Assembly (NCBI GenBank): GCA_016930855.1
Contig: JAFGFX010000086.1
Coordinates: forward strand, 1-33,278
Source: Sedimentisphaerales bacterium
GTDB lineage: Bacteria > Planctomycetota > Phycisphaerae > Sedimentisphaerales > SM23-30
Direction: 5' to 3'
Length of the DNA stretch: 33,278 nucleotides
How positions within the stretch are numbered: the stretch's first letter is position 1; every line of letters starts with the position of its first letter. The notes beneath the pieces are model-generated. The model was not told the DNA's origin. It worked only from the letters and a program-made list of their open reading frames with translations, and ran no database searches. Both the position numbers and the translations under genes were made by a program. Below, in pieces: positions 3,564-30,900 of this stretch.

Positions 3564-5540
3564 ATGATTCAACTGCCCGAATGTGTCGAGCCGCGGACCG
3601 TCTGCCTGGCCAACCTGAAGGTCCTCGCCGAGCATGCGCCGGGTCTTTGCCATACGATCGATCAGGTGGACCCGCGGGATTTTGTCGAGTGCGAGCCGAC
3701 CCGCTCGGGGGATCTGACCTGCCGGCTGGCGGGCTCGTCCGGCGCGCCCGTCTATTTGCACAGCCGCTATGATCCGGTGCGGGAGGCGGTCCGCTGGGCC
3801 GACGGGGTGGAGAAACTGGCCCGCGGCCTGGAGGAGAAACAGGACGGCCATATGCCGATGTGCTTCTTCGTGGACGGCTTCGGCCTGGGCTATCACGTCA
3901 AGACCCTGTTCGACCGCCTGGCGGCTCCGGCGTTCATCGTGGTCAGCGAGCCGAACGTCGCCCTGCTGCGGACGGCCCTGGAGCATTTCGACTACGCGGA
4001 GATGTTCGCCAGCGACCGGCTGATCGTGATCACCGCCGCCCAGCGGGACGAGATCTTCAAGAAGCTGGAGCTCCACAGCCACGCCATGATGATGGGCGTG
4101 GTCTTCACCCAGCCGCTCCAGCGGATCGAGGGCGAGTTTCACGCCCGGATCCACACCCTTGTCAGTGAGTACGCCGCCTACGTCCGCACCACGCTGATTA
4201 CCGTCCTGGCCAACGGCGTCCGGACGTGCACGAACATATTGCACAACCTGCCGACCTACGTGGCGACCGGATCAATCGAGGTGCTCAAGAACCGCTTTAC
4301 CGGCTGCCCGGCCGTGCTGGTCTCGGCGGGCCCGTCCCTGCGCAAACAACTGACGCGGCTGAAGGCCGTCCGCGAGCGGGTTGTCGTCGTGGCGGTCCAG
4401 ACCACGCTCAAGCCGCTGCTGGCGGCGGGCATCAAGCCGGACTTCGTCACCAGCCTCGACTACCACGCCGCCAGCAAGGACTTTTTCATCGGACTGAGGG
4501 ACGACGATTTGCAATCGGTGCACCTGGTCGCCGAGCCCAAGGCCCATTGGGAGGTGATCGACACCTACCGCCGGGCCGGCTGCGTGAGCCTGCTGGGCAA
4601 CGAGTTCGCCCAGCTCGTCCTGCGGGGCCGGCCGGACGACCACGACCGGCTGCGGGCGGGCTGCACGGTGGCCCACCTGGCGTTCTATCTGGCCCAGTAT
4701 CTGGGCGCCGATCCTATCATCCTGATCGGACAGGACCTGGGCTTTACCCACCACGTGTATTACAGCCCCGGCGTGGAGCTGCACGACCGCTGGCGGCCGG
4801 AGCTGAGCCGGTTCGGCACCATGGAGATGAAGGAATGGGAACGGATCGTGCGGCACCGGGGGATCCTGCGGCAGGTGCCGGACTACCAGGGCCGGCCGAT
4901 CTATACCGACGAGCAGATGTTCACCTACCTGCAGCAGTTCGAGAAGGATTTCGCCCAATGCCCGGCCCGGGTGATCGACGCCACCGAGGGCGGCGTGTTG
5001 AAGCAGTTCTGCCGGACGATGCCCTTCGCGCAGGCCATCGAGGCCTTCTGCCAGGCGCCTATCGAGCCCGAACGGTTCGCGTATCTGCGGCAAATGAACT
5101 GGTTCGATGACCGCCGGCTGCCCGAGGCGCGGTCCCTCGTCGAGAAGCGGCTGGAGGAAGTGGCCGAGTTCCTGGCGATCGGCCGGGAAACGGCCGAGCT
5201 GGTCACCGGGATGATGGATCTGGTGGATGACCAGCCGGCGTTGAACCAGCGGATGGTGCGGTTGGACGAGCTGCGGCGCAAGGTCAACCAGCGGCCCCAG
5301 GTGTACCGGCTGGTCAGTTACGTCTCGCAGATGGCCGAGATGTACCGCCTGCGGCAGGACAGCCGCATCAAGCTGGACCGCACCGAGGGCAAGGAACGCC
5401 AGCGCCGCCAGCTTCGCCGCGACATCCACTACGTTACGGAACTCAACAAGGGCTGCGAGCGCCTGATCGACATGCTGCGGGATTGTCTCAAACGATTCGA
5501 CGCGGACAGCGGGTCCGCCGGCCCAACGGAAACCGCATGA
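3564..5540 (+). CDS. Maf/DUF115 family putative protein glycosyltransferase (flagellin nonulosonic-acid transferase type)
   Basis: This 658-residue protein resembles the motility accessory factor / MptE-like (DUF115) family. Members in flagellated bacteria are required for attaching pseudaminic, legionaminic or sialic acids to flagellin Ser/Thr. The recognisable core begins near residue 243 with NRFTGCPAVLVSAGPSLRK (AGPSL at 255-259) and continues through KPDFVTSLDYH (291-301), GCTVAHLAFYLAQYLGADPIILIGQDLGF and HHVYY. The N-terminal 230 residues match the variable N-terminal part of the family (for example FFVDGFGLGYHVKTLF at 101-116). The C-terminal 150 residues are helical and charged. It is the first gene of the operon, with AGAAGGG 3 nt before the ATG, and overlaps the next gene by ATGA. 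Its neighbours neuA, neuB and neuC supply the likely CMP-sugar donor. The acceptor protein is not in the window, and no flagellin gene is seen. Confidence 0.8.
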   Translation: MIQLPECVEPRTVCLANLKVLAEHAPGLCHTIDQVDPRDFVECEPTRSGDLTCRLAGSSGAPVYLHSRYDPVREAVRWADGVEKLARGLEEKQDGHMPMCFFVDGFGLGYHVKTLFDRLAAPAFIVVSEPNVALLRTALEHFDYAEMFASDRLIVITAAQRDEIFKKLELHSHAMMMGVVFTQPLQRIEGEFHARIHTLVSEYAAYVRTTLITVLANGVRTCTNILHNLPTYVATGSIEVLKNRFTGCPAVLVSAGPSLRKQLTRLKAVRERVVVVAVQTTLKPLLAAGIKPDFVTSLDYHAASKDFFIGLRDDDLQSVHLVAEPKAHWEVIDTYRRAGCVSLLGNEFAQLVLRGRPDDHDRLRAGCTVAHLAFYLAQYLGADPIILIGQDLGFTHHVYYSPGVELHDRWRPELSRFGTMEMKEWERIVRHRGILRQVPDYQGRPIYTDEQMFTYLQQFEKDFAQCPARVIDATEGGVLKQFCRTMPFAQAIEAFCQAPIEPERFAYLRQMNWFDDRRLPEARSLVEKRLEEVAEFLAIGRETAELVTGMMDLVDDQPALNQRMVRLDELRRKVNQRPQVYRLVSYVSQMAEMYRLRQDSRIKLDRTEGKERQRRQLRRDIHYVTELNKGCERLIDMLRDCLKRFDADSGSAGPTETA

Positions 5541-7201
5541 GCGAGACAAACGGCCGAAAAAATGTTGCCGTCCTCTACGCCTGCCCGGCCGGAGGCGTGC
5601 TGGGCCTGCGCTCGCGGATCGCCGAGACCATCGCCGGCCGACCCATCCTGCGCCGGACCGTCGAACGCCTGCAACGGGCCCAACGGCTAAGCGAGATCAT
5701 CGTGTTCTGCCCGGCCCAGGACGGCGATCGGATCCAGGTGCTGCTGGCCGGTACGCGGGCACATCTAATCGGATTGAACCAGCCCCCCCCCGTCAGCCGC
5801 CACGTCCGGCGGCGCAAATGGTCCCTGCACAGTTGGCGCGGCGGGATCCGGGAGGCGACCGTCTTCGACGAGCAGCCCTGGACTACCGAGATGATCGAAC
5901 TACTGCGCCGCCGGGAGGTCTTCACCGTGGTGGCGGTCCCGGCCGAGGCGATCCTGGTCGATCCGGACCTGATCGACGGCCTGATCGACCATCACCACGA
6001 GCAGGGCGCGGCGATGCGGTTCACCTTTTCCCAGGCGGCGCCCGGCCTGGCTGGCTGTGCCTACCGGCTGGACCTGCTGCACGAGCTGAACCAGGCCCAG
6101 ATGGGCGTGGGCGATCTGCTGATGTACGATCCCGAGAGCCCCCACGCCGATTACATCATGCAGGAGTGCAATTACCGCGTCCCCCGCGACCTCTGCGTAA
6201 CCGGCCGGCGGTATATCGCGGATACCCAGCGCAGCTTCGAGCTCCTGGAGCGTCTGGCCGCCGCCGGCAACGGGCAACTGGAGGGCGACCCGGCCGAGCG
6301 GCTGATGGCCCGCCTGTCGGAGATACCGGAAATCATTGATCCCCTGCCGCGGGAACTGGAGATCGAGATCTGCACGGCGCCTAGTAACCGCATCATCGGG
6401 TATCCGCACCGCGGCGACAACGGCCACCCGAACCACCCCGCACGCCTGGCCCGGCCGGACATGCCGCTTTCACTGTTTGAAAAGATCGTCGGCGACTGTG
6501 GGGCCTACGATGATCTATGCCTGACCATCGGGGGATTCGGCGAACCGCTATCCCGCCCGGATCTACCTCAGGTAATCGAACTGGCCAAACAAGCGGGCAT
6601 CTGGGCCATTCACATCGAGACCGACGGCCTGGGCCTGGAAGGCCGGCTGGCCGAGGCGCTCTGTGAATCCGCCGCCGATGTGATCAGCGTTTACCTGGAC
6701 GCCGACAGCCGCCAGACATACCAATCCGTCAAGGGCGCCGACCAGTTCGAGCAAGTGACCGCCAACATCGAGTCGTACCTGGAAATGGCCCAAGCCCGTA
6801 AAGGACCGGCTCCCCTGCTGATCCCCCACCTGGTCAAGTCGCGCCAGACGATCGACGAGATGGAGGCCTTCTACGACCGCTGGCTGCGGCGCGGCGGCGC
6901 GGCGGTGATCGAGGGATACAACGACTTCGCCGGCCAGATCGAGGACCGGGCGGTCATGGACATGTGCCCGCCGCAGCGGTTTGCCTGCCGCCGCCTGGAT
7001 CGCACGCTGACGATCCTGTCCGACGGCAGTGCCGTTATCTGCGGCCAGGATTTCCGCGGCGACCGGCCGATCGGCCACGCCGGCCAAACCAGCATAAATC
7101 AGCTCTGGCAGACACAGCTAAAAGAGCTGCGGCAGGCACAGCGGCAGGGACGATTCGATGCCAATCCGCTCTGCGCCCGCTGCAAGGAATGGCATCGCTG
7201 A
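5537..7201 (+). CDS. Nucleotidyltransferase-like / decayed radical SAM / SPASM fusion protein
   Basis: The ATG at 5537 is chosen over an in-frame ATG at 5483 because it makes an ATGA overlap with the preceding stop; this gives 554 residues. Residues 8-60 look like a sugar-nucleotide cytidylyltransferase start (LGLRSRIAETIAGRPILRRTV), without the usual basic loop. Residues about 272-470 have the layout of a radical SAM barrel: strand EIEI, then a cluster position, then GGFGEPL (332-338) in the SAM-binding place. The expected CxxxCxxC instead reads Cys279-x3-Ser283-x2-Ile286, so the SAM cluster cannot form normally. The C-terminal SPASM-type cysteines are kept: Cys477, Cys484, Cys502, Cys546, Cys549. 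From memory it resembles proteins called spiro-SPASM in spirochaetes, but I am not certain. Function is unknown; the operon position suggests a role in nonulosonate glycosylation. Confidence 0.7.
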   Translation: MSETNGRKNVAVLYACPAGGVLGLRSRIAETIAGRPILRRTVERLQRAQRLSEIIVFCPAQDGDRIQVLLAGTRAHLIGLNQPPPVSRHVRRRKWSLHSWRGGIREATVFDEQPWTTEMIELLRRREVFTVVAVPAEAILVDPDLIDGLIDHHHEQGAAMRFTFSQAAPGLAGCAYRLDLLHELNQAQMGVGDLLMYDPESPHADYIMQECNYRVPRDLCVTGRRYIADTQRSFELLERLAAAGNGQLEGDPAERLMARLSEIPEIIDPLPRELEIEICTAPSNRIIGYPHRGDNGHPNHPARLARPDMPLSLFEKIVGDCGAYDDLCLTIGGFGEPLSRPDLPQVIELAKQAGIWAIHIETDGLGLEGRLAEALCESAADVISVYLDADSRQTYQSVKGADQFEQVTANIESYLEMAQARKGPAPLLIPHLVKSRQTIDEMEAFYDRWLRRGGAAVIEGYNDFAGQIEDRAVMDMCPPQRFACRRLDRTLTILSDGSAVICGQDFRGDRPIGHAGQTSINQLWQTQLKELRQAQRQGRFDANPLCARCKEWHR

Positions 7202-8110: not shown

Positions 8111-9640
8111 GTGGCCTACATCTCTCATGACATCGCCTTGATCTTCCCGCCGATCCGCACCTGGGACCGGCCGCGGAATTTCCCCACGGGACCGGGGCTA
8201 ATCGCCGCCCGCCTGCGCAGCAGCGGTTATCGCGTATCCGTGATCGACGTCAACGGCCTGCGGCTTAGCGACGAGGAGGTCCTCGAGCGCATCCGGCAGG
8301 TCGATCCGGCGGTCATCGGCATCGGCGGCCTGATCACCACCTACGGCTGGATCAAACGATTAACCCCGCAAATCCGCGGCCTGCGACCCGACCGCCCCAT
8401 CGTCCTGGGCGGCTCGGTCGGCACCAGCATCATCGAGACGGCGCTGGCGAACCTGGACATCGACGTGATCGCCGTGGGCGAGGCCGACGAGACCATCCTG
8501 GAACTCATGCCGGCCCTGCTCGCCTCCGGCCGATCGACGGAGCCGCTGGAAGCAATCGCCGGCCTGGCATTCCGCCGGGACGGCCAGGTCGTCCGCACGG
8601 CGGACCGGCCCCTGCTTAAAGACCTTGACATCCTGCCCTATCCGGCCTGGGACCTGTTCCCCATGGAGGTGTACCTGGCCAATCCGATCGTGGGGGTGGG
8701 CAGGGACATCGACATCATCAGCTCGCGGGGCTGCCCGTTTGCCTGCGCCTACTGCTACCGCATCTTCGGCCGCCGCTACCGGGCCCGCAGCGCCGCGCAC
8801 GTCGTCGGCGAGATGGAGGCACTCCAGCGTAATTACGAGGTGGATTTCATCAGCTTCCAGGACGACTGCTTCGTGGTGGACAAGCAGCGGGCCTATGACA
8901 TCTGCGACCTGATCGACCGCAACCGCCGCCTGGCGTCGCTGCGCTGGAGCTGCACGGGCCGGGTGACCGTCTGCGACCGGGACCTGCTGGACCGCATGCG
9001 GGCCAGCGGCTGCGTGTCGGTCAGCTACGGCATCGAAAGCGGCTCGGAGAGCATTCTGGCGGCCATGAGGAAAAACGCCAGCCTGGCCCAGGCCGCCCGG
9101 GCGATCGAGAACACGCGGGCGGCGGGTCTGCGTTGTCCGGTGTCGTTCATGATCGGCTATCCCGGCGAGACCCGCCAAACGGTCATGGAGACGGTCGAGT
9201 TCTGCCGGCGGGTGAACATCCCGCTAACGTCGCTGATGTTCACCTGCCCCTATCCGGGCACCGAACTGTACGAGCAGGTCAAGGATACGCCCCGCTTTCG
9301 CCGGCAGTTCGCCGGCGAGGAGGATTTCGTCCGCCGCCTGGGCGATGCCGTGGACCTGACGGTCAATTTGACCGAGCTGGAGGACGCACAACTGACCGCC
9401 CTGCGGGACGAGGCCCTCAATCTGGCCCGGCAACAGTACCGGCCGCCCTCGCCGGCCGAACGCGACGCCCAGGAACGAAGCCTCTACGGCGAAGCCCTCT
9501 ATGCCAAGGCCCGCGAGCAACTGGAAACCGACGCTTTGAAGGAACATCGCCGCCGGCACGGATTCAATGAGTCGCTCGATTCGGAATCGCATTTGCCCAA
9601 TCCCTCCCAGGAGCCGTTCCATGCCGCAGGTCCGCAATGA
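8111..9640 (+). CDS. B12-binding-domain radical SAM protein, unknown reaction
   Basis: This 509-residue protein has two parts. Residues about 6-140 form a Rossmann-like domain of the cobalamin-binding type (LIFPPIRTWDRPRNFPTGPGLIA..., VLGGSVGTS, VIAVGEADETILEL) but show no DxHxxG motif, so cobalamin, if bound, is probably base-off without the usual His. Residues about 200-430 are a radical SAM barrel with SSRGCPFACAYCYRIFG, giving cluster ligands Cys208, Cys212 and Cys215. YGIESGSESIL and SFMIGYPGET are the expected later barrel motifs. The start is GTG at 8111 with AGGAG 5 nt upstream. The 3' end overlaps neuB by 20 bp, so it is translated within the sialic-type operon. The reaction is unknown; such enzymes often do methylations, cyclisations or sugar/lipid modifications. 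Confidence 0.85.
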   Translation: MAYISHDIALIFPPIRTWDRPRNFPTGPGLIAARLRSSGYRVSVIDVNGLRLSDEEVLERIRQVDPAVIGIGGLITTYGWIKRLTPQIRGLRPDRPIVLGGSVGTSIIETALANLDIDVIAVGEADETILELMPALLASGRSTEPLEAIAGLAFRRDGQVVRTADRPLLKDLDILPYPAWDLFPMEVYLANPIVGVGRDIDIISSRGCPFACAYCYRIFGRRYRARSAAHVVGEMEALQRNYEVDFISFQDDCFVVDKQRAYDICDLIDRNRRLASLRWSCTGRVTVCDRDLLDRMRASGCVSVSYGIESGSESILAAMRKNASLAQAARAIENTRAAGLRCPVSFMIGYPGETRQTVMETVEFCRRVNIPLTSLMFTCPYPGTELYEQVKDTPRFRRQFAGEEDFVRRLGDAVDLTVNLTELEDAQLTALRDEALNLARQQYRPPSPAERDAQERSLYGEALYAKAREQLETDALKEHRRRHGFNESLDSESHLPNPSQEPFHAAGPQ

Positions 9641-10814
9641 ATTGCCGTGGCCACCGGGGCAGCCGGGGCAAAGCCGGCCGTACGTCATTGCCGAGGCGGG
9701 CGTCAACCACAACGGCCGGATCGAGATGGCGTCTCAACTGATCGACGCCGCCCGGCGGGCGGGGGCCGACTGCGTCAAGTTCCAGGCCTACAGTACCTCG
9801 GAACTGGTCACCCGCTCCTCCGCCAAGGCCGACTACCAACAGGCCTGCGGCCCCGCCGGGGAAAGCCAGTTCGAGATGCTTCAGCGCTATGAGCTACCGG
9901 TCGAGGCCTTCGGCCGGCTGAAGGCATATTGCGACAAGCAAGGCCTGGATTTTCTGGTGACGCCCTTTTCACCCCGCTGGGTGAATCTGCTGGAGGAACT
10001 GCACGTCAGCGCCTACAAGATCGGCTCGGGCAACCTGTGCCATCCGGACCTGCTGGAGGCCGTGGGGCGAACCGGCAAGTGCGTGTTCGTCTCCAAGGGC
10101 ATGGCGAGCCTGGCCCAATCCGATCGGGCCCTGCAGGCGCTGCGCCGGGCGGGCTGTAGCTGGATCTGCCTGCTCCACTGCATCAGCTCCTACCCGACGC
10201 CGATAGAGGACGCCCACCTGCGGACCATCGGCATGCTCGCTGCGCATACCGGCCTGCCGATTGGGTTCTCCGATCACACGCGCCAGATCGAAACGGGACT
10301 GCTGGCGGTCAACGCGACGGCCGTCGTCCTGGAGAAACATCTGACCCTGGATAACACGCTGGCCGGGCCCGATCACGCCATGAGTCTAACACCCGACCAG
10401 TTGGCCGAATATATCCGCCTGGCCCGTCATCTGGGAACAATCCCCCCCGAAAAACGCCAGCGATACATTGACCAGGACGAGCATCTGGCGGCGATGTGGG
10501 CCGTCGCCGCCGGCGACGCTCTAACGGAGCCGCTGCCTGCCGAACGCCGACTCAAAACGGTCGCGGGCCTGAGCGTGGTGGCCGCCTACCCCATCGGCCG
10601 GGGCACTATGATCGCGCCGGCCATGCTGACGATCAAGCGGCCCGGCAGCGGCATCCCCCCTGATCAACGCCATCTAATCATCGGCCGCATTGCGGCCAGG
10701 GACATCGGTGAGGATCAACCAATCGAATGGGACGACATCGACAAGGACACCGGCCCGGCAGCCGCGCCGGGATCGGCCGGCAGTCCCAGAATCTCGAAGG
10801 TGGAGAACCTGTGA
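9621..10814 (+). CDS. neuB: N-acetylneuraminate (nonulosonate) synthase
   Basis: This 397-residue enzyme condenses phosphoenolpyruvate with ManNAc, or a related aldose, to form a nonulosonic acid. The TIM barrel has YVIAEAGVNHNG (residues 21-32), CVKFQAYST (51-59), FLVTPFS (111-117), KIGSGNL (133-139) and the metal-ligand pair GFSDHT (His219) and LEKHLTLD (His240), then GPDHAMSL. A C-terminal SAF/antifreeze-like domain (about residues 310-372, VAGLSVVAAYPIGRGTMI) closes the dimer active site in this family. The ATG at 9621 has AGGAG 7 nt upstream; an in-frame ATG at 9567 lies deeper inside the previous gene and lacks this. The stop overlaps the next gene as GTGA. Confidence 0.93.
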   Translation: MPQVRNELPWPPGQPGQSRPYVIAEAGVNHNGRIEMASQLIDAARRAGADCVKFQAYSTSELVTRSSAKADYQQACGPAGESQFEMLQRYELPVEAFGRLKAYCDKQGLDFLVTPFSPRWVNLLEELHVSAYKIGSGNLCHPDLLEAVGRTGKCVFVSKGMASLAQSDRALQALRRAGCSWICLLHCISSYPTPIEDAHLRTIGMLAAHTGLPIGFSDHTRQIETGLLAVNATAVVLEKHLTLDNTLAGPDHAMSLTPDQLAEYIRLARHLGTIPPEKRQRYIDQDEHLAAMWAVAAGDALTEPLPAERRLKTVAGLSVVAAYPIGRGTMIAPAMLTIKRPGSGIPPDQRHLIIGRIAARDIGEDQPIEWDDIDKDTGPAAAPGSAGSPRISKVENL

Positions 10815-12153: not shown

Positions 12154-13308
12154 ATGCCGCCGACCAAACACAAACGGATCGTCGCCGTCGTCACCGGGGC
12201 CCGCTCGGACTACGGGATCCTCCGGCCGGTCCTGAGCGCCATCGCCGCCCATCCCCGCATGGAGCTCAAGCTGCTGGTCACCGGCATGCACCTGCTGCGC
12301 CGGTTCGGCTATACGGTCCGGCAGATCGAGCAAGACGGCTGGCCCATCGCCGGCCGGATCCGCCTGCAGGGCGAGCGGGACGATCCGATAACCCAGGGCC
12401 GCGGCCTGGGCCGGGCCATTACGGGCCTGACCGACGCCCTGGCCGCCTGCCGGGCACAGATCGTGCTGGTGCTGGGCGACCGGATCGAGGCCTTCGCCGC
12501 CGCCGCCGCCGCCACGGCCAGCAACCGCATCCTGGCCCACATCCACGGCGGCGACGCGGCCGTTGGGGTCCAGGACGACGCCTACCGCCACGCGATTACG
12601 AAGCTGGCGCACGTGCATTTTGCCGCGTCCAGCGAGGCCAAACGGCGGCTCAAGCGGCTGGGAGAGCCCGATTTTCGTATTTATCAGACCGGCTCACCCG
12701 CGGTCGATAATTTATCCCGGTTGATTTGCCGGGACGAGCGGCTGCTGGGCGAATGGGCCGGTTTCGATGTCCGCGAGGATTTTCTCCTGGTTCTGCAGCA
12801 TCCCGCCGGCGGCTCGGGTGTAGAGGAGGAAAGGCGGATGAGGCAAACCTTGGCCGCCTGCCGCCATAAAGACATGTATACCATAGCTTTATATCCCAAC
12901 AGCGATCCGGGCTTTTCCGGGATCCTGCGGGCCGCCCGGCGGGAAAGCCGCCGGAAGCGATTCCGACTGCTCAGGAGCGTGCCACGGGAGATCTATCTGG
13001 GCCTCTTGGAGCGCTGCCGGATATTGGTGGGCAACAGTTCCAGTGGTTTAATTGAGGCGGGTTACCTAAATGTCGATGTTATCAACGTCGGACCGCGTCA
13101 GCTCGGCAGGCCGCGTAGCCCGAACGTTCGGGATGTCCCCTACGGCCCGCCGGTGAACAAGGCCGTCGCCGAGGCCTTGGGGCGGCGCCGAACGCCTCGC
13201 CGCCGCCGATCGCTGTATGGAGACGGCAACAGTGGCCGCCGGATCGCCGCGATCCTGGCCCGGCTGCCGGACGATGCTTGTTGGAGGCAAAAACGGATTG
13301 CCTATTGA
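12154..13308 (+). CDS. neuC: Hydrolysing UDP-GlcNAc 2-epimerase (ManNAc-forming)
   Basis: This 384-residue GT-B-like enzyme is of the NeuC/LegG type. It releases UDP and ManNAc (or a diacetyl analogue) as substrate for NeuB. Signatures are VTGARSDYGILRPVL (13-27), LLVTGMHL (40-47), LGDRIEAFA (107-115, Asp109 and Glu112), HIHGGDAAVG (129-138), DDAYRHAITKLAHVHFA (141-157, Asp141) and the UDP-site motif LVGNSSSGLIEAGY late in the protein. Homologues I know read HIEGGE or HIHGGE where this one has HIHGGD. It is the last gene of the operon, 53 bp after the glycosyltransferase gene. The C-terminus is unusually Arg-rich (RRRTPRRRRSLYG). No LegB/LegC/LegH-type genes accompany it, which favours the Neu5Ac route. 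Confidence 0.9.
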   Translation: MPPTKHKRIVAVVTGARSDYGILRPVLSAIAAHPRMELKLLVTGMHLLRRFGYTVRQIEQDGWPIAGRIRLQGERDDPITQGRGLGRAITGLTDALAACRAQIVLVLGDRIEAFAAAAAATASNRILAHIHGGDAAVGVQDDAYRHAITKLAHVHFAASSEAKRRLKRLGEPDFRIYQTGSPAVDNLSRLICRDERLLGEWAGFDVREDFLLVLQHPAGGSGVEEERRMRQTLAACRHKDMYTIALYPNSDPGFSGILRAARRESRRKRFRLLRSVPREIYLGLLERCRILVGNSSSGLIEAGYLNVDVINVGPRQLGRPRSPNVRDVPYGPPVNKAVAEALGRRRTPRRRRSLYGDGNSGRRIAAILARLPDDACWRQKRIAY

Positions 13309-13363
13309 GGCCGTTAAGCGAATTCGAGGCGAACGGCCAGGCCCGGGAGTTTTTACGCCCGGG
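13309..13363 (+). terminator. Two stacked inverted repeats after neuC (weak terminator or processing site)
   Basis: Directly after the neuC stop, GGCCGTT (13309-13315) pairs with AACGGCC (13332-13338). CCCGGG (13342-13347) can then pair with CCCGGG (13358-13363) around a T-rich loop. No T-run follows, so this is not a classical intrinsic terminator. It may separate the glycosylation operon from the HDOD gene. Confidence 0.35.
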
Positions 13364-13398
13364 TGGCGAATTTTGCCAGAGCCTATAAGGGAGTAAAC

Positions 13399-14247
13399 GT
13401 GACTGCATCACCAGCCGAAAAGATTGCCGGTAAAATCCCTGAGCTGTCCACCCTGCCGCAGGTGACCATGCGGATCATCCAGGTCGTTCAGGATCCGCGC
13501 AGCACGGCGAACGACCTGCACAAGATTGTATGCAACGATCCGGCGCTGTCCGCCCGGGTTCTGCGGGTCGTGAATTCCGCCTTTTACGGCCTGCCCGGCC
13601 AGATCGGCAGCATCGACCGGGCCATCATGCTTTTGGGCCTCAACGCCGTGAAAAACATCGCCATCGCCGCCTCGCTTTCGAAGATGTTCAAGAAGCTGAC
13701 CCCCTGCGACGACCTGACCGGCAGGGACCTCTGGACCCACAGTGTCGCCGTGGGCGCCACCAACAAGCTGATCACCACGGCCATGGGCCTGGCCCTGCCG
13801 GACGAGGCCTTCCTGGCGGGCTTGATCCACGACATCGGGCTGGTGGTCGAATTGCAGGCCGAAGGCAGCGAGCTGATCCAGATCGTCCAGCAGACCAAGG
13901 CGGGGCTAACCTTTTGCCAGGCCGAGCACAACGTGCTGGGCACCGATCATCAGGAAATCGGCATGGTCCTCACCCAGCGCTGGAAGTTCCCCCGCTCATT
14001 CCAGTACGTGGCCGGCTACCATCACCGCCCCGGGGACCTGGCCCAGGAAAACCGGCTGCTGGCCGTGGTGACGCACCTGTCGGACTGCATCTGTGCCCGG
14101 CGGGAACTGGGGATCCAGATCACCGTGGCCGGCAAATGCCCCGAGCCGGAATTCGTCCGGGAAATCGGGCTGCCCCAGGCCAAGCTGGAAGAAATCTCCG
14201 AGATGATCGAAAGCGAGCTGGAGACCGTGCGGTCGCTGATCGAGTAG
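13399..14247 (+). CDS. HDOD domain signalling protein
   Basis: This 282-residue, single-domain HDOD protein is from a family of HD-related, usually non-catalytic output or scaffold domains in chemotaxis, motility and c-di-GMP signalling. Hallmarks are IPELSTLPQVTMRIIQVVQDP near the start, IVCNDPALSARVLRVVNSAFYG, IDRAIMLLGLNAVKNIAIA, then LWTHSVAVGATNKLI and AGLIHDIGLVVEL, where the HD pair is retained. HHRPGDL marks the third conserved histidine region. The GTG at 13399 is chosen because AAGGGAG lies 5 nt upstream; an earlier in-frame GTG at 13363 falls in the repeat region. A PilZ gene follows after a 331-bp gap containing a strong terminator, so the two are separate units. It has no receiver domain, unlike the REC-HDOD protein at 29683. 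Confidence 0.88.
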   Translation: MTASPAEKIAGKIPELSTLPQVTMRIIQVVQDPRSTANDLHKIVCNDPALSARVLRVVNSAFYGLPGQIGSIDRAIMLLGLNAVKNIAIAASLSKMFKKLTPCDDLTGRDLWTHSVAVGATNKLITTAMGLALPDEAFLAGLIHDIGLVVELQAEGSELIQIVQQTKAGLTFCQAEHNVLGTDHQEIGMVLTQRWKFPRSFQYVAGYHHRPGDLAQENRLLAVVTHLSDCICARRELGIQITVAGKCPEPEFVREIGLPQAKLEEISEMIESELETVRSLIE

Positions 14248-21093: not shown

Positions 21094-22548
21094 TCAGCCC
21101 ACCTCGGGAAAGGCCACGTTGATCTGGCGGGCGGCGGCCGTTTCGTCCAGCCGCCCCACCGGCGTGGTCCGCGGCGCCGAGCGCAGCGAGTCGGGATCGG
21201 TCTGGGCCCGCCGGGCAATCTCGATCATCGCCTCGATGAAGCCGTCGAGCGTTTCCCGGCTTTCGGTCTCGGTGGGCTCGATCATCAGCGATTCCTTCAC
21301 TATCGTGGGGAAATACACCGTCGGCGGGTGAAATCCGGCGTCGATCAGGGCCTTGGCGATATCGATCGCGTGCAGATGCTGTTCCATCTGGCGGCGGGCG
21401 CTGAAAACGCACTCGTGCTTGCAGGCCTGGGCGAAGGGCAGATCGTAATGCCCCTTGAGCTTCTCCTTGACGTAGTTGGCGTTCAGCACGGCATTGGCCG
21501 CCACCCGTTCGAGCCCTTCCCTGCCCAGCATGCGGATATAGACGTAGGCCCGCAGGATCACCCCGAAGTTTCCGTAAAACGGCGCCACGTATCCGATCGA
21601 CTTGGGCCGGTCGTATTCCAGGGCGAAGGTCCCGTCGTCCCGCTTGACGACGAGGGAGACGGGCAGGTAGTCCGCCAGCCGCTCGACCACCCCCACTGGT
21701 CCGGCGCCGGGCCCGCCGCCGCCGTGCGGCGTGGCGAAGGTCTTGTGCAGGTTGATGTGCACGATATCGAAGCCGATGTCGCCGGGACGGACCATGCCCG
21801 TGATGGCGTTCAGGTTGGCCCCGTCGTAGTAGACCAGCCCGTCCGCCTCGTGCACCAGCCGGCAGATCTCCTTGATGTGCGGATTGAACAGGCCCAGCGT
21901 ATTCGGGCAGGTGAGCATCAACCCGGCGACCTGGTCGTTCAGCATCCGCCGCAGGGCCTGGACGTCCATCACGCCGGTCGCGTCGCTGGGCACCGCCTGG
22001 ACCTGATAGCCGGCGATCGAGGCGCTGGCGGGATTGGTCCCGTGGGCGCTGTCGGGAATCAGCAGCGTCGTGCGGCGGCTGCCGCGGTCGCGGTGATACG
22101 CCGAGATGATCATCACGCCGGTCAGCTCGCCGTGGGCCCCGGCCAGCGGCTGCATGGTGAAGGCCGCCATCCCAGTGATCTCCCGCAGCAGCAGGTCGGT
22201 CTCGTACAGCACCTGCAGCGCCCCCTGGGTGAGGATCCCGCCCATCCGCAGCTGCGGCAGCAGCGGATGCAGGTCGGCGAAGCCCGGATAGCCGCCGATG
22301 ATCTCGCTGACCTTCGGGTTGTATTTCATGGTGCAGGAGCCCAGCGGATAAAAATTCGTGTCCACCCCGAAGTTCCGCCGGGACAGTTCCGTGAAGTGAC
22401 GCACCACGTCCAGCTCGCTCAACTCGGGCAGTTGCGGCGGCTTCGGCCGCAGCAGGCGCTCGTTGATATGGATGCTGGTGGGCACGTCGCTGCGGCAGGG
22501 CCGCACGCCCCGGCGGCCCGGCACGCTCTTTTCGAACAGCAGCTTCAT
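21094..22548 (-). CDS. gcvPB: Glycine dehydrogenase (decarboxylating) subunit 2
   Basis: This 484-residue subunit of the split P-protein binds PLP and, with GcvPA, decarboxylates glycine and passes aminomethyl to the lipoyl arm of GcvH. Diagnostic stretches are FYPLGSCTMKYNPK (66-79), GALQVLYE (109-116), AGAHGELTG (136-144), PDSAHGTNPASA (165-176) and the PLP lysine in HINLHKTFATPHGGGGPG (Lys269). The length is normal for the split subunit. Its ATG overlaps the gcvPA stop by 4 bp (22545-22548), so the two are translationally coupled. It is the last gene of the operon. The 124-bp convergent spacer beyond it shows no clear terminator. Confidence 0.96.
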   Translation of the reverse strand: MKLLFEKSVPGRRGVRPCRSDVPTSIHINERLLRPKPPQLPELSELDVVRHFTELSRRNFGVDTNFYPLGSCTMKYNPKVSEIIGGYPGFADLHPLLPQLRMGGILTQGALQVLYETDLLLREITGMAAFTMQPLAGAHGELTGVMIISAYHRDRGSRRTTLLIPDSAHGTNPASASIAGYQVQAVPSDATGVMDVQALRRMLNDQVAGLMLTCPNTLGLFNPHIKEICRLVHEADGLVYYDGANLNAITGMVRPGDIGFDIVHINLHKTFATPHGGGGPGAGPVGVVERLADYLPVSLVVKRDDGTFALEYDRPKSIGYVAPFYGNFGVILRAYVYIRMLGREGLERVAANAVLNANYVKEKLKGHYDLPFAQACKHECVFSARRQMEQHLHAIDIAKALIDAGFHPPTVYFPTIVKESLMIEPTETESRETLDGFIEAMIEIARRAQTDPDSLRSAPRTTPVGRLDETAAARQINVAFPEVG

Positions 22549-23876
22549 AACTGGGCCTCCAGGGCCTCGGCCAGCATGCCGATCTCCTGCTTGGTCCGCT
22601 TTTCGGTCACGGCGATCAGGATCGACCGGTCCATGTCCTCGTAGTACCTACTCAGGGGGAAGCCGGCGGCAAAGCCCTTCTCCACGAGCCGAGCGATGAC
22701 GTCCGCCGCCGGGCCGGGCAGATCCAGCACGAACTCGTTGAAGAACCACTTGCGGTGAAACCGGCTGGTCACCCGCGGTAGCGCCGTGAGACGCTGGTAG
22801 GCGTAGCTGGCCTTGTCGGCGCAGCGCTGGGCCACCTCCTGCAGGCCCGTCGGACCCAGCAGGGACAGATAGATCAGCGCCCGCAGGGCGCAGAGGCTTT
22901 CGTTGGTGCAGATGTTGGAGGTGGCCTTGTCCCGCCGGATGTGCTGCTCCCGCGCCTGCAGGGTAAGCACGAACCCGCGGCGGCCCTCGGCGTCGGTCGT
23001 CTGGCCGGCGATCCGGCCCGGCATCTTGCGGATGTACTGCCGGCGGGTGGCCATGAAACCCAGGTACGGCCCCCCGAACGACAGCGGCAGGCCCAGGCTC
23101 TGGCCCTCGCCTGTGACGATGTCGGCGCCCATGGCCCCGGGCGTCTTGAGGATCCCCAGGGCGAGAGGATAGCAGGACACGATCAGCAGCGCCCCCTTTT
23201 CGTGCACGGCGACCGACAGATCGCGATAGTCGTCCACGCAGCCGAAGAAATTGGGGTTCTGGACAATCACCGCGGCTGTCTGAGCGTCGAGGTTCTCCAG
23301 GATCTCGCAGCGGTTGGCCAGACCGTCGTCGTTGCGGGTCGGCACGAACTCGATGCGCAGGTTGCGGCTGTAGGATTCGATGATCACCCGGTAGATCGGA
23401 TTGACGCTGTCGTCGAGGATGATCTTGTTGCGGCCGGTGATCCGCAGGGCCATGGTCATGGCCTCGTACAAGGCCGTACCGCCATCGTAGAGCGAGGCGT
23501 TGGCCGCCTCCATCTGGGTCAGCCGGCAGATCATCGTCTGGTACTCGTAGATCGCCTGCAGGGTCCCCTGGGAGATCTCCGGCTGATAGGGCGTGTAGGC
23601 CGTATAGAACTCGCTGCGGCCCGCCAGGGCGTCGATCGCCGCAGGGATGAAATGATCGTAAAAACCGCCCCCCAAAAAGCAGACCAGCTCGGTGGAGTTC
23701 TTGCCGGCCAGCTCCGTCAGTTGCCGGCGGACCTCCTGCTCACTGATGCCCTCCGGGATATTCAGCCGCCCGCAGCGCAACTCCGGCGGGATGTCGGCGA
23801 ACAGGTCCTCCGGCCGCAGGCCGATCTCCCGCAGCATTTGCTGGCGCTGCTGATCCGTATTGGCGATAAATGGCAT
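22545..23876 (-). CDS. gcvPA: Glycine dehydrogenase (decarboxylating) subunit 1
   Basis: This 443-residue subunit is the PLP-free half of the split P-protein. It begins MPFIANTDQQRQQMLREIGL and has the usual GGGFYDHFIPAAID, FYTAYTPYQPEISQGTLQAIYEYQTMI and NASLYDGGTALYEA motifs, with QAREQHIRRDKATSNICTN near the C-terminus. It lacks the PLP lysine motif, as expected for this subunit. AAGGGG precedes the ATG, and the gene starts 12 bp after gcvH ends. Split P-proteins are typical of many thermophilic, anaerobic and planctomycete-type genomes, whereas enterobacteria have a single fused protein. Confidence 0.96.
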   Translation of the reverse strand: MPFIANTDQQRQQMLREIGLRPEDLFADIPPELRCGRLNIPEGISEQEVRRQLTELAGKNSTELVCFLGGGFYDHFIPAAIDALAGRSEFYTAYTPYQPEISQGTLQAIYEYQTMICRLTQMEAANASLYDGGTALYEAMTMALRITGRNKIILDDSVNPIYRVIIESYSRNLRIEFVPTRNDDGLANRCEILENLDAQTAAVIVQNPNFFGCVDDYRDLSVAVHEKGALLIVSCYPLALGILKTPGAMGADIVTGEGQSLGLPLSFGGPYLGFMATRRQYIRKMPGRIAGQTTDAEGRRGFVLTLQAREQHIRRDKATSNICTNESLCALRALIYLSLLGPTGLQEVAQRCADKASYAYQRLTALPRVTSRFHRKWFFNEFVLDLPGPAADVIARLVEKGFAAGFPLSRYYEDMDRSILIAVTEKRTKQEIGMLAEALEAQL

Positions 23877-23888
23877 GGGATCCCCTTG

Positions 23889-24269
23889 TCACTGTTCCTG
23901 GAGATACTGTTCGTATTGCCCGGCGTTCATCAATCCGAACGTCTCCGGGCCCCCTTGCGCCTGGATTTTGCAGAGCCAGCCATCCTGATAACAGCTCTGG
24001 TTGATCAGCTCCGGCTCGGACTCCAGCCGGCCGTTGACCTCGGTGATCTCGCCGGCGACCGGGCTGTACACCTCGCTGGCGGCCTTGGAACTCTCGACGG
24101 AGCCGATCGGGTCCATCGCCTTGATCCGGCGGGCCGGGGCGGGCAGCTCGACAAAGGTGATCTCGCCCAACTGCTCCTGGGCATGGTGGGTGATCCCCAT
24201 GGTGGCCGACTGGCCGTCAAAACGAACCCATTCATGCTCCTTGGTGTACCACAAGTCCGAGGGAATCAT
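23889..24269 (-). CDS. gcvH: Glycine cleavage system H protein
   Basis: This 126-residue lipoyl carrier shuttles the aminomethyl group between P and T proteins. The start WYTKEHEWVRFDG (7-19), ITHHAQEQLGEITFVELP (26-43) and the lipoylation loop ESSKAASEVYSPVAGEI with Lys62 are all canonical. The ATG at 24269 has AGGAG 7 nt upstream; the frame is open further upstream, but that extension matches nothing and overlaps gcvT. It lies 40 bp after gcvT and 12 bp before gcvPA. No lipoate ligase/synthase or lpd gene is in the window. Confidence 0.96.
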   Translation of the reverse strand: MIPSDLWYTKEHEWVRFDGQSATMGITHHAQEQLGEITFVELPAPARRIKAMDPIGSVESSKAASEVYSPVAGEITEVNGRLESEPELINQSCYQDGWLCKIQAQGGPETFGLMNAGQYEQYLQEQ

Positions 24270-24309
24270 GCCGTCTCTCCTTCCGCTTGGCGATTTGCTC
24301 ATCCTGCCG

Positions 24310-25533
24310 TCAAAACCGCGCCATCCGTTCGAGGATGGTGCCGTTGACATCCGGCGCCATCGTCTCGCCCAGGCGAACGGATTCCTTTCGCCCCTCCTGC
24401 CGGTGCCGCTCGCTGCGGGCCAGGTAATATACTCCGACCGTTTCTTGACATTCCAGGCGGGCATCCACCAGGGCCAGGGCGATCTGGGACTCCCCGACAC
24501 GGGCGCAGCTCAGGACCCAGCCGACGCATTCACCGGAATCGGCCAGCACCGCATCGTCGGGCCGGACCGGACGGACGCCCGGCCGGCCGGGAAGCTCCAG
24601 CCGCTGGACCTGCTGGGTATAGTCGGTGCTCTGGGCCCGCAGGGCCTCCTGGCCAATGAAAAACGGCTTATCCAGCTTGACCGCCCAGCCGTAGCCCGCC
24701 TGAAAGGGGGATATCCGGTGGGCGCCGGCCAGCTCGTGACCGTACAAGGGCAGGCCCGCCTCGATCCGCAGGCTGTCCCGCGCCCCCAGGCCGCAGGGAA
24801 CCAGCCCTAGATCTTCGCCGGCCTGCAGCAATCGCTGCCAGATTGGACCCGCCTGGTCGGGATGGACGTAAAGCTCATAGCCGACGCTGGATCCGGTATA
24901 GCCGGTGGCGGCGATGAACACATCCGAGCCCTCCAGCCGCGTCGGGAATCCTTCAAACGACTTCAATTTGCCCAAAGCGTTCCGGGCCGCGTCGTCAGGC
25001 AATATCCGCTCCAGGATCTCGCGGCTGGCCGGGCCCTGCAGGGCCAGGTCCACCCGCCGCCGCCGGCCCTGGGCCGGATCGGCCAGGTCGCAGATCTCCG
25101 GCGCCGCCGCCCCGGACAATCGCTCGTCGAGAATCTCCTGCGCCCGGGCGAACCAGCGGCCGATCTTGTCATGATTGACGGCGTTGACCACCATCATGAA
25201 TTCCTGCGGGCCCAGGCGATATACGATCACGTCATCGAGGACCGCGCCGACCGTATCGACTATATACCCGTAGCGGGCCTTGCCGGGAGCCAGGGAGGCG
25301 ATCGTTTGGGTGGTGAGCCCCTCGAGAAAATCGGCCGCCGTCGCCCCGCGAATCGACCAAACCCCCATGTGCGTGCAGTCGAACAGGCCGGCGGCCTGCC
25401 GAACCGCCTGGTGCTCCCGCGGGATGGAGGAATACCATACCGGCATGAGATAGCCGGCAAACTCAATGAGCCGGGACCGGTCCGTCCGCAGCAGATGCTG
25501 TTCATACAATACCGTTTTTCTGGCTGGCGACAT
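24310..25533 (-). CDS. gcvT: Glycine cleavage system T protein (aminomethyltransferase)
   Basis: This 407-residue, tetrahydrofolate-dependent protein releases ammonia from aminomethylated GcvH and forms methylene-THF. Motifs are FAGYLMPVWYSSIPREHQAVRQAAGLFDCTHMG (25-57), ARYGYIVDTVGAVLDDVIVYR (86-106, catalytic Asp100/Asp101 region), VNAVNHDKI, FIAATGYTGSSVGYELYV and GLGARDSLRIEAGLPLYGHEL. The protein is about 40 residues longer than E. coli GcvT. An insertion around residues 130-155 (SGAAAPEICDLADPAQGRRRR) and a longer tail that replaces the usual C-terminal PFV-type strand account for this. It is first in the operon. There is no strong Shine-Dalgarno before the ATG. Confidence 0.93.
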   Translation of the reverse strand: MSPARKTVLYEQHLLRTDRSRLIEFAGYLMPVWYSSIPREHQAVRQAAGLFDCTHMGVWSIRGATAADFLEGLTTQTIASLAPGKARYGYIVDTVGAVLDDVIVYRLGPQEFMMVVNAVNHDKIGRWFARAQEILDERLSGAAAPEICDLADPAQGRRRRVDLALQGPASREILERILPDDAARNALGKLKSFEGFPTRLEGSDVFIAATGYTGSSVGYELYVHPDQAGPIWQRLLQAGEDLGLVPCGLGARDSLRIEAGLPLYGHELAGAHRISPFQAGYGWAVKLDKPFFIGQEALRAQSTDYTQQVQRLELPGRPGVRPVRPDDAVLADSGECVGWVLSCARVGESQIALALVDARLECQETVGVYYLARSERHRQEGRKESVRLGETMAPDVNGTILERMARF

Positions 25534-25584
25534 AGGCGTATTCCCGGCTCGGCACTATCATCCCCGCTCGATCAATCCCTTCAT

Positions 25585-25613
25585 AGCCTACAATCGCCCG
25601 GAGAAGTTTGCAA
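25585..25613 (-). promoter_or_regulatory. Candidate promoter of the glycine cleavage operon
   Basis: On the minus strand TTGCAA (25608-25613) is followed after 17 nt by TAGGCT (25585-25590), which would give a leader of about 45 nt. The -10 match is poor. No glycine-riboswitch core is visible between 25534 and 25760. Confidence 0.35.
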
Positions 25614-25665
25614 TATCCAATATCAGGATTTTATACACCCTGACCTATCTCCGCCGGCCGGGCGG

Positions 25666-25694
25666 TTGATTGCCCGGGCAAGACCGGCTATACT
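25666..25694 (+). promoter_or_regulatory. Promoter of the glycoside hydrolase gene with an internal palindrome
   Basis: TTGATT (25666-25671) and TATACT (25689-25694) are 17 nt apart. A perfect 12-bp palindrome TTGCCCGGGCAA (25670-25681) overlaps the -35 element and the spacer, where a bound repressor would block RNA polymerase. The leader is about 60 nt. Confidence 0.55.
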
Positions 25695-25760
25695 CCAGCA
25701 AATCCATAGTGGAGGGCATTGTCTCTATACCCATGAACTCGTCTGACGTTTGAAAGGGCT

Positions 25761-27897: not shown

Positions 27898-29058
27898 TCA
27901 ATCGAAATAATCCGGGCAGGGAATCCGCACGCGGAAGGGTTCCTTGATGCCGACGCGGCCCTGATGGAAATTGCGGACCCGCTCCAGGACCGGATAGGTG
28001 ACCTCGTGGCCCAAGGGGACCAGCAACACCCCTTTCTTGCTCTTGATGTGCTCGTCGGTGACCATGCCGATTTCCATCTCCTCGACGGTGATCTCCCGGA
28101 TCTCGACCTCCACCTGATCCAATTCGAGGGTTTCCAGGGCGTCCAGCAGGGCGGGATTATACTGGCCCGGGCGCTTGCGCAGGGCGTTGAGGGAGGCATG
28201 GGGGGAAATGGCGCGGGCCACCAGTTGATCGTAATCCATGGCGATCCGCAGCATCTGGGAGCCGACGGCGGCCAGGCGGTCCTGCTGGGACCAGTGCTCC
28301 GAGCCGGTATACTCCTCGAAGGGCTTGAGCTGATTCTCAATCATCCGCGAGACCAAATCCAGCCGAGGGATCCGTTCCAGGAGTTTTTGGGCCACCTTGG
28401 GATGGGCCTTGAACATCTTGTTTTCCGCGTAGGACAGGTCCCGGCGGCGGTAAATCTTGTTGATGATCAGCTGCGGCAGGGTCACGCAGCCCACCTGGGA
28501 CAGCATGGCGGCGATCTCGTACTGCCAGGGATCGGGCAGCTGCAATTCGCGGGCCATGTGCTTGACGTACTGCTTGATGCGGGCGGTGCAACTGAAGGCG
28601 GTGGGATTGACCAGGCTGAGGATCTCGGTGAGGACCTTGATGCTGCCCCGCAGGGTTTTCTCCAGCAGTTCCTTCTCGCTGTGGATCAGACGATACTGGG
28701 CCAGGGCCGCCTGCAGGGTCTCCACCATCATCTCCGGCGGACAGGGCTTGTTGAGAAAGCGGAAGATGCACCCCTGGTTGACGGCATCGATGGCGGTCTG
28801 CAGATCGGCGTTGCCGGTGAGCATCATGCGGACGCTGTCGGGATACAGTTCGCGGACGCGCCCCAGAAACTCGATGCCATTCATGCCCGGCATGCGCATA
28901 TCGGAAACGATGACGGCGAACGGTCCGTTGTCCTTGGTCAGTTCCAGGGCGCGCTGCGGGCCGTTGGCGGTCTCCAGCTGAAACTGCTTGCGGAGCTGAC
29001 GCTTGTAGCTGTTGAGAAGGTTTTCATCATCATCGACAAACAGGATCTTCTCATGCAT
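27898..29058 (-). CDS. Response regulator: receiver plus decayed HD domain
   Basis: This 386-residue protein has a complete receiver domain (1-120): acidic pocket DDDE, phospho-acceptor Asp53 in VSDMRMPGMNG, Thr in MLTG, Lys104 in FLNKPCPPEM. A helical linker with a coiled-coil character leads to an HD-GYP-related domain (about 140-260), where the expected catalytic HD reads Ser187-Gln188 (AAMLSQVGCVTLP). The later helix YAENKMFKAHPKVAQKLLERIP, with His219, still matches the family, but no GYP motif is present. Phosphodiesterase activity is unlikely. The C-terminal 130 residues are acidic and end in a small beta-rich region. It is last in the cluster, 12 bp after the lone receiver gene, with GGGA 7 nt before the ATG. 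Confidence 0.85.
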   Translation of the reverse strand: MHEKILFVDDDENLLNSYKRQLRKQFQLETANGPQRALELTKDNGPFAVIVSDMRMPGMNGIEFLGRVRELYPDSVRMMLTGNADLQTAIDAVNQGCIFRFLNKPCPPEMMVETLQAALAQYRLIHSEKELLEKTLRGSIKVLTEILSLVNPTAFSCTARIKQYVKHMARELQLPDPWQYEIAAMLSQVGCVTLPQLIINKIYRRRDLSYAENKMFKAHPKVAQKLLERIPRLDLVSRMIENQLKPFEEYTGSEHWSQQDRLAAVGSQMLRIAMDYDQLVARAISPHASLNALRKRPGQYNPALLDALETLELDQVEVEIREITVEEMEIGMVTDEHIKSKKGVLLVPLGHEVTYPVLERVRNFHQGRVGIKEPFRVRIPCPDYFD

Positions 29059-29070
29059 TCGTCGTTCCCT

Positions 29071-29667
29071 TTACCCCTGCCCGGCCGGCTCGGCCGCCAG
29101 CCGGCACTCGGCGCGCTGAATCTCGGCGTCGATCTTCTGGATCAACACGTCGAAACTTTCGATCGGGGCTTCCAGAATCAGCGCTCCCTGGGGGCCCTTG
29201 TCAATTCGGGTAATGCCGGGGTGCTTGCGCTCCAATTCCTGCAACAGGGTGAATTGCCGACGGGCAACGCGCAGCAGCTGGCGGCTCTTGGCGATCAGCT
29301 GCTTATGCTGGAGCGCCTGGCGGATGGTGATGGCCAGGTCCAGGCCGTTGCAGGGCTTGATCAGAAAGCGGTATATCTCGCCCTCGTTGATGGCGGTGAC
29401 CGCGGTTTCCAAGCGGGCATGGCCGGTCATGATGATCCGAACGGTATCGGGGAAATCGGCGCGGACCACGCTGAGCAGCTTCGTCCCGGACATGCCGGGC
29501 ATCTGTTCGTCCGAGACCACCACGTCGATCTCTTCCTTCGCCAGGATGCGCAGGGCCTCCTTGGCATCCCCGGCGCTGAAGATTTCGTACGCTTCCCTGC
29601 GCAACATATGCTTGAGGGAACGGGTCACGTTCGGCTCGTCGTCGACAAACAATACCTTATGACTCAT
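29071..29667 (-). CDS. Stand-alone response regulator receiver protein
   Basis: The ATG at 29667 has GGAGG 6 nt upstream; an in-frame TTG two codons earlier is less likely. The 198-residue protein has a receiver domain with DDE (9-11), phospho-acceptor Asp53 in VVSDEQMPGMSG, Thr in IMTGHARLETAV and Lys in RFLIKPCNG. The remaining 80 residues (from about 118) are mostly helical (HKQLIAKSRQLLRVARRQF), then a short beta-type stretch and a final helix. There is no DNA-binding or enzymatic domain, so the tail may act in protein interaction. It lies 15 bp after the REC-HDOD gene and 12 bp before the REC-HD-like gene. Confidence 0.88.
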   Translation of the reverse strand: MSHKVLFVDDEPNVTRSLKHMLRREAYEIFSAGDAKEALRILAKEEIDVVVSDEQMPGMSGTKLLSVVRADFPDTVRIIMTGHARLETAVTAINEGEIYRFLIKPCNGLDLAITIRQALQHKQLIAKSRQLLRVARRQFTLLQELERKHPGITRIDKGPQGALILEAPIESFDVLIQKIDAEIQRAECRLAAEPAGQG

Positions 29668-29682
29668 AGGCAACCTCCGCCG

Positions 29683-30900
29683 TCATCCCGGCACGGAAAC
29701 GGCGGATCGGCACCGGTTCCGCCACGGTTCCAGGTGATCCGCCAGCCCCAGGCCCGCCAGATAGTCGCCATCCAGCGGCTCGCGCGGCCCATCGGGATTA
29801 TCGGCCGATTCCTGTTCGCGGCTGAGCCAATTCGCCGCGTAGACGGCCGTCAGGGCCACCGATGCGGGACGTTGCGCCTCGGACGGCCGGTGATGATAGC
29901 TCAGGGCATCGATGATCTCGTGATGAAAGCCCCATAATCCCAGCAGATAGGCCCCGATCTCGGCATGCGTGTTGCCGAGGATCTCCTTCTCGGCCTGCTC
30001 GCTGGTCAGATGGTCCGTTTCGGATCGCTCCATGACGGTTTCATACTGTTCGGGCAACTGGGTGGCGAGGATCAACTTGCCCACGTCATGCAGCATGCCG
30101 GCCAGCAGGGCGTTATCCAGGGACGGCGGTTCGGCCCGGAGCTGCTGGGCAATGGCCCTCGACCACTGGCCGACCTGGAGGCTGTGATCCCACAGATCCG
30201 AGAGGATAAAGTGTGATTTTTCCTGCTTGGGAAACTGGGTGAAGATCTTGATGGAAAGGGCCAGCGATTTGATGGTATCCAGCCCCAGCAGCCCGACGGC
30301 CTGGGGAATGCCGGTGATCCGCTGACGGACGCCGAAAAAGGCCGAATTGACCAACTGGAGGATCTTGGCGCTCATGGCGATATCCTGGCCGATGATCTCG
30401 CCGACCGCCTTCGCCGAGCACTCCTGCGACTGCAGGGTCTGCATCAACTGGGTATACACGCTCGACAGGCAGGGCAGCGACTCCATCTGGGCCACAAGCC
30501 CCTGGAGCGATTCGTTGTGGAGAAGGCGATGCAGGGATCCCAGCCGATCGATCGCCCTTTTGAGCGTTTCGGCGTCGCAGGGCTTGGACAGGTATTGATG
30601 GGTGGGGCCGACCGAACGCAGGATTTTTTCCTTGGAGGTCTGTCCCGACAGGGCCACGCGGGCGATGTAGGGCTGATGGACCTTGACCCATTCCAGCAGT
30701 TCCAAGCCGTTCATGTCGGGCATGCGCATGTCCGTCACCAGCACGTCAATAGGCCGGCTCTGGAGCAGTTCGACGGCGGCGCGGCCTCCGTCGGCAAAGG
30801 ACATCTCCCACTCGTCCCGCAGGCCGCGGAGCATCCGCCGCAGTCCGGCCAGGACGTTCGGCTCGTCATCCACAAAGAGAATTTTCTTCTTGGCGTTCAT
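29683..30900 (-). CDS. Response regulator with HDOD output domain
   Basis: This 405-residue protein has a receiver domain (1-125): FVDDEP, phospho-acceptor Asp57 in VTDMRMPDMNG, Ser/Gly in LSGQTS, Lys106 in YLSKPCDAETL. An HDOD domain (about 135-345) follows: MESLPCLSSVYTQLMQTLQ, IIGQDIAMSAKILQLVNSAFFG, IPQAVGLLGLDTIKSLALSIKIF, and an intact HD pair in AGMLHDVGKLIL (His271, Asp272), then SYHHRPSE. The family usually has a regulatory rather than hydrolytic role. The start lies inside the upstream histidine kinase gene (35-bp overlap), with GGAGG 8 nt before the ATG, implying coupled translation. It is closely similar in layout to the receiver-less HDOD protein at 13399. Confidence 0.92.
   Translation of the reverse strand: MNAKKKILFVDDEPNVLAGLRRMLRGLRDEWEMSFADGGRAAVELLQSRPIDVLVTDMRMPDMNGLELLEWVKVHQPYIARVALSGQTSKEKILRSVGPTHQYLSKPCDAETLKRAIDRLGSLHRLLHNESLQGLVAQMESLPCLSSVYTQLMQTLQSQECSAKAVGEIIGQDIAMSAKILQLVNSAFFGVRQRITGIPQAVGLLGLDTIKSLALSIKIFTQFPKQEKSHFILSDLWDHSLQVGQWSRAIAQQLRAEPPSLDNALLAGMLHDVGKLILATQLPEQYETVMERSETDHLTSEQAEKEILGNTHAEIGAYLLGLWGFHHEIIDALSYHHRPSEAQRPASVALTAVYAANWLSREQESADNPDGPREPLDGDYLAGLGLADHLEPWRNRCRSAVSVPG

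Follow-up and report, generated by a model that had tools for sequence, protein, structure and literature searches.

What is the function of a protein that joins a cytidylyltransferase-like head to a radical SAM barrel lacking its SAM cluster, and why is it encoded directly beside maf? Maf is the enzyme that places sialic-acid-like sugars on flagella, using CMP-nonulosonates as donors. We examined this in a contig stretch of 33,278 nucleotides from a Sedimentisphaerales bacterium, here called the window, which contains the following features:

3564..5540, forward strand: Maf-type flagellin glycosyltransferase (PF01973, PF20157; similar to 5mu5)
5537..7201, forward strand: pSAM, a pseudo-radical-SAM/twitch protein with a cytidylyltransferase-fold head, 554 aa
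5555..6331, forward strand: pSAM head, approximately residues 7-265, with the NeuA/KdsB/IspD cytidylyltransferase fold (Foldseek, sequence)
6332..6961, forward strand: pSAM radical SAM barrel without SAM cluster, approximately residues 266-475 (alignment, model, Foldseek)
6380..6403, forward strand: site of the lost CxxxCxxC, codons P282 to Y289 (ligand positions P282, I286, Y289)
6530..6550, forward strand: GGFGEPL, residues 332-338, counterpart of the SAM-binding GGEP motif
6986..7183, forward strand: pSAM twitch region with conserved C484, C502, C546, and C549
7234..8007, forward strand: NeuA-like CMP-nonulosonate synthetase, likely start ATG 7234, with intact RAGSQGLPGKN
8111..9640, forward strand: B12-binding radical SAM protein, same operon
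9567..10814, forward strand: NeuB-type nonulosonate synthase (open frame; the true start is probably further in)
12154..13308, forward strand: UDP-GlcNAc 2-epimerase (NeuC-like)

The start codon of pSAM shares bases with the stop of maf (ATGA, 5537-5540). An AlphaFold2 model of pSAM built with 51 aligned homologues had a mean pLDDT of 93.2 and a pTM of 0.92. With Foldseek, its N-terminal half matched the cytidylyltransferases 6oew, NeuA (6ifd), KdsB, and IspD, and its C-terminal half the radical SAM twitch/SPASM proteins BtrN (4m7t), SuiB, DesII, MoaA, and SkfB. The partial TIM-barrel fold of the radical SAM superfamily is present in pSAM by both model (pLDDT 93) and Foldseek, so the structure prediction that a preliminary description of this DNA had proposed as a check did yield a radical SAM barrel. 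A PDB search with the single pSAM sequence gave no useful match for the pSAM family itself. In a genome search the close relatives of pSAM fell in the window's own family, and the two named homologues are both in Phycisphaerae MAGs.

The CxxxCxxC motif is near-universal in the radical SAM superfamily. It is absent from the 554-aa pSAM of the window. Canonical relatives read E-x-T-x-x-C-x3-C-x2-C-P at this place, and the near-invariant E277 and P290 of pSAM lie 13 residues apart, as they do in the canonical relatives, with no gap. Because of this spacing, we assign the ligand positions to P282, I286, and Y289. The preliminary description had placed them at Cys279, Ser283, and Ile286 and counted two of three ligands as gone. 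Its central claim that the cluster is lost stands, but the gapless flanks put that register three residues off, and all three ligands are missing. Cys279 lies outside the motif at the T of E-x-T, where most relatives carry T or N. The GGFGEPL that it reported is retained, and G335 within it is invariant across the stand-alone pSAM family.

This loss extends through the family. The CxxxCxxC columns held no Cys in 50 of 51 aligned stand-alone pSAM proteins and a single Cys in the remaining one, and the motif was found at the ligand columns in 0/51 stand-alone and 0/30 Maf-fused forms (81 proteins). The same searches supplied 28 canonical controls, all of which contained it. An intact CxxxCxxC in close homologues had been named beforehand as the finding that would overturn the claim, and it did not occur in any head-bearing homologue. 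A pattern search for CxxxCxxC matched three stand-alone pSAM proteins, in each case in the twitch tail, outside the barrel. Two loci considered as head-bearing relatives with an intact motif were rejected, since the N-terminus of L069 is unrelated to the pSAM head and L055 has no such head by eye; both belong to the canonical clade. Because the SAM-cluster ligands are missing, pSAM is predicted to carry out no radical chemistry.

The gene is closely tied to maf. In 38 of 43 extended loci, maf and pSAM share a strand with maf directly upstream, and the stop of maf often overlaps the start of pSAM by 4 bases; among the five loci without maf in that place, one reflects a contig end and one has maf downstream. 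Adjacency was also seen in ten further stand-alone loci and was independent of whether NeuA, NeuB, or NeuC genes follow. No Maf was found within about 1.5 kb among the canonical radical SAM/SPASM loci examined. The B12-binding radical SAM gene occurs in loci of the window's family and is absent from the other loci examined.

Maf and pSAM also co-occur. We scored pSAM presence by profile search, setting aside 17 matches of canonical strength. Ignoring kinship, 397 Phycisphaerae genomes divided into 203 with both proteins, five with Maf only, eight with pSAM only, and 181 with neither, which places pSAM in 203 of 208 Maf-bearing genomes. Four of the five Maf-only genomes were weak, MptE-like matches. 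Flagellin and a strong NeuB were present in all 41 sampled genomes that bear the pair, compared with flagellin in 14/20 and strong NeuB in 6/20 pair-free controls. Because of these counts, the pair appears to track nonulosonate flagellin glycosylation and not flagella alone.

Families f8 and f11 have long open frames for Maf, of about 1100-1480 aa. In these families, each of the 30 loci read encodes Maf and then pSAM in one chain of about 1100-1380 aa. A predicted fusion of 1184 aa had a pLDDT of 89 and a pTM of 0.85, with halves that match Maf 5mu5 and SuiB/BtrN; such a pTM over two modules suggests that, in the model, the halves pack in a fixed arrangement. The fusions retain 0 or 1 of the four twitch cysteines per protein (n = 30; each cysteine at 3-10%), and many of them have an eroded C-terminal part. 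The head residues R93, R101, D111, G170, Y197, D205, and R225 are 97-100% conserved. Because the head is conserved in fusions with neither cluster, this pattern suggests that the head is the functional core shared by the pSAM forms. The link to Maf drawn in the preliminary description is borne out by adjacency, co-occurrence, and fusion alike.

Together, the genomic linkage, the fusion, and the conservation pattern make it very probable that pSAM is a subunit of Maf. Sequence and model further favor, with less assurance, a non-catalytic subunit that would hold the sugar donor and/or flagellin, and the binding or scaffold function that had been suggested for the pseudo-radical-SAM barrel next to Maf is supported. 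In this mechanism, pSAM would dock on Maf, the NeuA-derived head would hold CMP-nonulosonate (or CMP) and pass the donor to Maf, and the barrel would hold or orient flagellin or make a docking surface. Donor binding is the simplest role for the head, given that CMP-sugar synthetases have this fold and CMP-nonulosonates are the donors of Maf, and by this analogy we put it forward tentatively. The radical SAM/SPASM barrel of relatives such as SuiB has a peptide-binding cavity, and because these relatives bind peptides the pSAM barrel could serve as a flagellin-binding or docking surface. More speculative is the full sequence of events, in which a dead CMP-sugar synthetase head presents CMP-nonulosonate while a dead barrel grips flagellin, and loss of the SAM cluster was followed by fusion to Maf and then by loss of the second cluster. 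Against the need for a partner, the Maf of C. botulinum modifies flagellin when only those two proteins are co-expressed (PMC11339370).

The resemblance of the N-terminus to sugar cytidylyltransferases, noted in the preliminary description, is upheld by the fold match to 6oew (Foldseek TM-score 0.73-0.75 by target length) and by alignment of the head to the neighboring true NeuA (E = 1.4e-5). The same fold and alignment would fit a head that is an active, divergent CMP-sugar synthetase loading the donor beside Maf, with the radical SAM half alone dead. Several families and 90% of the fusions keep an Asp where the metal would bind, and about half of the examined loci have no NeuA beside the pair, both of which also fit an active head. 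However, the GxxGLPGKN signature of true NeuA (RAGSxGLPGKN) is absent from the head, where an LGxRSR-type sequence (here LGLRSR) stands in its place, and many members have Ala, Gly, or Glu in place of the metal-binding Asp, the window protein having Glu137. In addition, a NeuA with an intact signature follows pSAM in the window, and the head scores below Pfam cut-offs. On balance, we consider an active synthetase unlikely. Some residual catalysis by the head is conceivable, given the metal-type Asp of several families and of fusions and E137 here.

In common with NeuA, KdsB, and IspD the pSAM head has the cytidylyltransferase fold; unlike them it lacks the catalytic signature and, in the window protein, the metal Asp, and has its own conserved set, R93, R101-G-G, and D111-E. 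Overall, R93, W100-R101-G-G, D111-E, D142, G170, Y197, D205, R225, and D229 are invariant or nearly so. The label "double pseudo-enzyme" is therefore well justified in the case of the barrel; for the head, it is probable but not proven.

The pSAM C-terminus reads C484-x12-G-x4-C502 followed by C546-x2-C549, which agrees with the CX9-15GX4C and CX2C arrangement of the first four SPASM/twitch cysteines, and it scores 35.3 bits with PF13186 (SPASM/twitch) against a cut-off of 21.5. A full SPASM domain has seven cysteines and two clusters (PMC6231123, which defines the twitch/SPASM cysteine motif); pSAM does not match that motif, with 5 residues after C549. By its cysteine spacing, the pSAM C-terminus is twitch-type. 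The four cysteines were kept in 51/51 aligned stand-alone proteins and were invariant in 54/54 head-bearing homologues of our first sets. Five SPASM-type cysteines had been described previously; the fifth, C477, is not conserved among the homologues.

This invariance, and the four-Cys arrangement that in BtrN fully ligates one [4Fe-4S] cluster (PMC6231123), might indicate a twitch cluster that carries electrons, or one that senses iron or oxygen and so switches Maf on and off. Such a role is quite improbable, since all 30 fusions have 0 or 1 of the four cysteines, and the stand-alone proteins L153, L158, and L159 lack the full set, even though Maf and the head remain conserved; in the stand-alone branch a sensor is still conceivable. 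Because the twitch cysteines are lost while the conserved head residues stay, the electron transfer suggested in the preliminary description is disfavored as a core role. We infer instead that the simplest role for the twitch cluster is a structural one. It would stabilize the C-terminal part of stand-alone pSAM and would become dispensable once Maf and pSAM are joined into one protein.

The Maf-subunit reading also has to be weighed against one in which pSAM serves flagellin folding or export, as a maturase or scaffold, and its gene simply accompanies maf. The strict tie of pSAM to flagellin-bearing genomes and the fact that twitch/SPASM proteins usually act on peptides would both suit this. 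By contrast, pSAM is absent from flagellin-bearing genomes without Maf, and the covalent fusion is to Maf and not to export proteins, so we regard a maturase as very unlikely.

We built a tree from the barrel and twitch only and rooted it at the midpoint. A branch with support of 100/97 separated the canonical radical SAM/SPASM proteins from all pseudo forms, and the Maf-pSAM fusions had a single origin (100/99). Midpoint rooting does not itself set the direction of change, so the case for descent from a catalytic ancestor, with loss of its SAM cluster, depends on the motif being nearly universal in the superfamily. In the closest pSAM pairs dN/dS was approximately 0.10-0.15, with head, barrel, and twitch each constrained. 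This constraint, and conservation across many Planctomycetota families, argue that the pSAM pattern is not due to chance. The absent motif cysteines might suggest that an ordinary radical SAM/SPASM enzyme has mutated or is decaying in this copy, but this is refuted by the family-wide absence of the motif, the well-supported branch, the low dN/dS, and the invariant residues elsewhere in pSAM.

Among known families, the best profile match and nearest named relative of pSAM is TIGR04321 (spiro-SPASM, NCBIfam), which aligns to residues 127-553 with the same layout. pSAM scores 154.9 bits against a cut-off of 250 bits; we searched planctomycete genomes twice, about 390 each time, and none reached this value. 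When we probed this profile with changed residues, the three motif cysteines added 9-11 bits and one fixed twitch Cys was worth about 7; these profile probes indicate that the motif columns are partly, not uniformly, Cys. The profile gives no weight to the planctomycete head residues R93, R101, and D111-E112. Plasmid searches for spirochaete homologues yielded only partial radical SAM/SPASM matches. TIGR04347 (Haloarchaea, NCBIfam) is, by its name, a precedent for a pseudo-SAM/SPASM family, and its match to pSAM is a stray one (17.9 bits; cut-off 525). A literature search covering few subscription journals found no paper on spiro-SPASM or pseudo-radical-SAM proteins. BtrN, SuiB, MoaA, and SkfB share the barrel fold with pSAM, and BtrN also has four Cys and one auxiliary cluster, but these enzymes keep CxxxCxxC and cleave SAM whereas the pSAM family is without the ligands. 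Maf (5mu5, PF01973/PF20157) is encoded next to pSAM and makes up the N-terminal half of each fusion; elsewhere it is a single three-domain protein without a pSAM-like partner (PMC11339370).

In flagellin recognition by Maf, no conserved sequon is known (PMC11339370). A dedicated partner such as pSAM makes the question of how Maf picks its donor and recognizes flagellin testable. Of the 397 Phycisphaerae genomes sampled, more than half carry pSAM, and it also occurs in other planctomycete classes. Automatic annotation of pSAM as "radical SAM" would mispredict radical chemistry. These proteins form a series in which a radical SAM fold loses its catalytic and later its auxiliary cluster and yet is retained, and this series is useful because it allows structural and redox roles of twitch/SPASM clusters to be separated.

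In the family to which the window belongs, nearly all loci with sufficient reach carried the B12-binding radical SAM gene of the nonulosonate operon; none was seen in the loci of other families examined. This gene may have a role in sugar modification. The window genes considered here are as follows:

8111-9640, B12-binding radical SAM gene, within the nonulosonate operon
13363-14247, HDOD gene, last gene of the nonulosonate operon
21094-25533, minus strand, glycine cleavage system (two P-protein subunits, H and T)
24862-25746, open frame of 294 aa
27964-29937, open frame of 657 aa
29683-33188, cluster of response-regulator, histidine kinase-type, Hpt and HDOD genes

In relatives, the HDOD gene at 13363-14247 occupies the same operon-closing place. 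Neither open frame (24862-25746 or 27964-29937) had a Pfam match at E<=1e-5. On the spirochaete plasmid pBHWA1, from Brachyspira, the locus L071 carries several radical SAM/SPASM genes in a row with a HAD hydrolase alongside.

Flagellin frames were compared among sampled genomes, one of them represented by G000:C320:6042-6455. In those with the Maf-pSAM pair they were about 440-660 aa, whereas in pair-free genomes of the same class the frame was often only about 275 aa. The longer flagellin in genomes with the pair fits a larger glycosylated outer domain.
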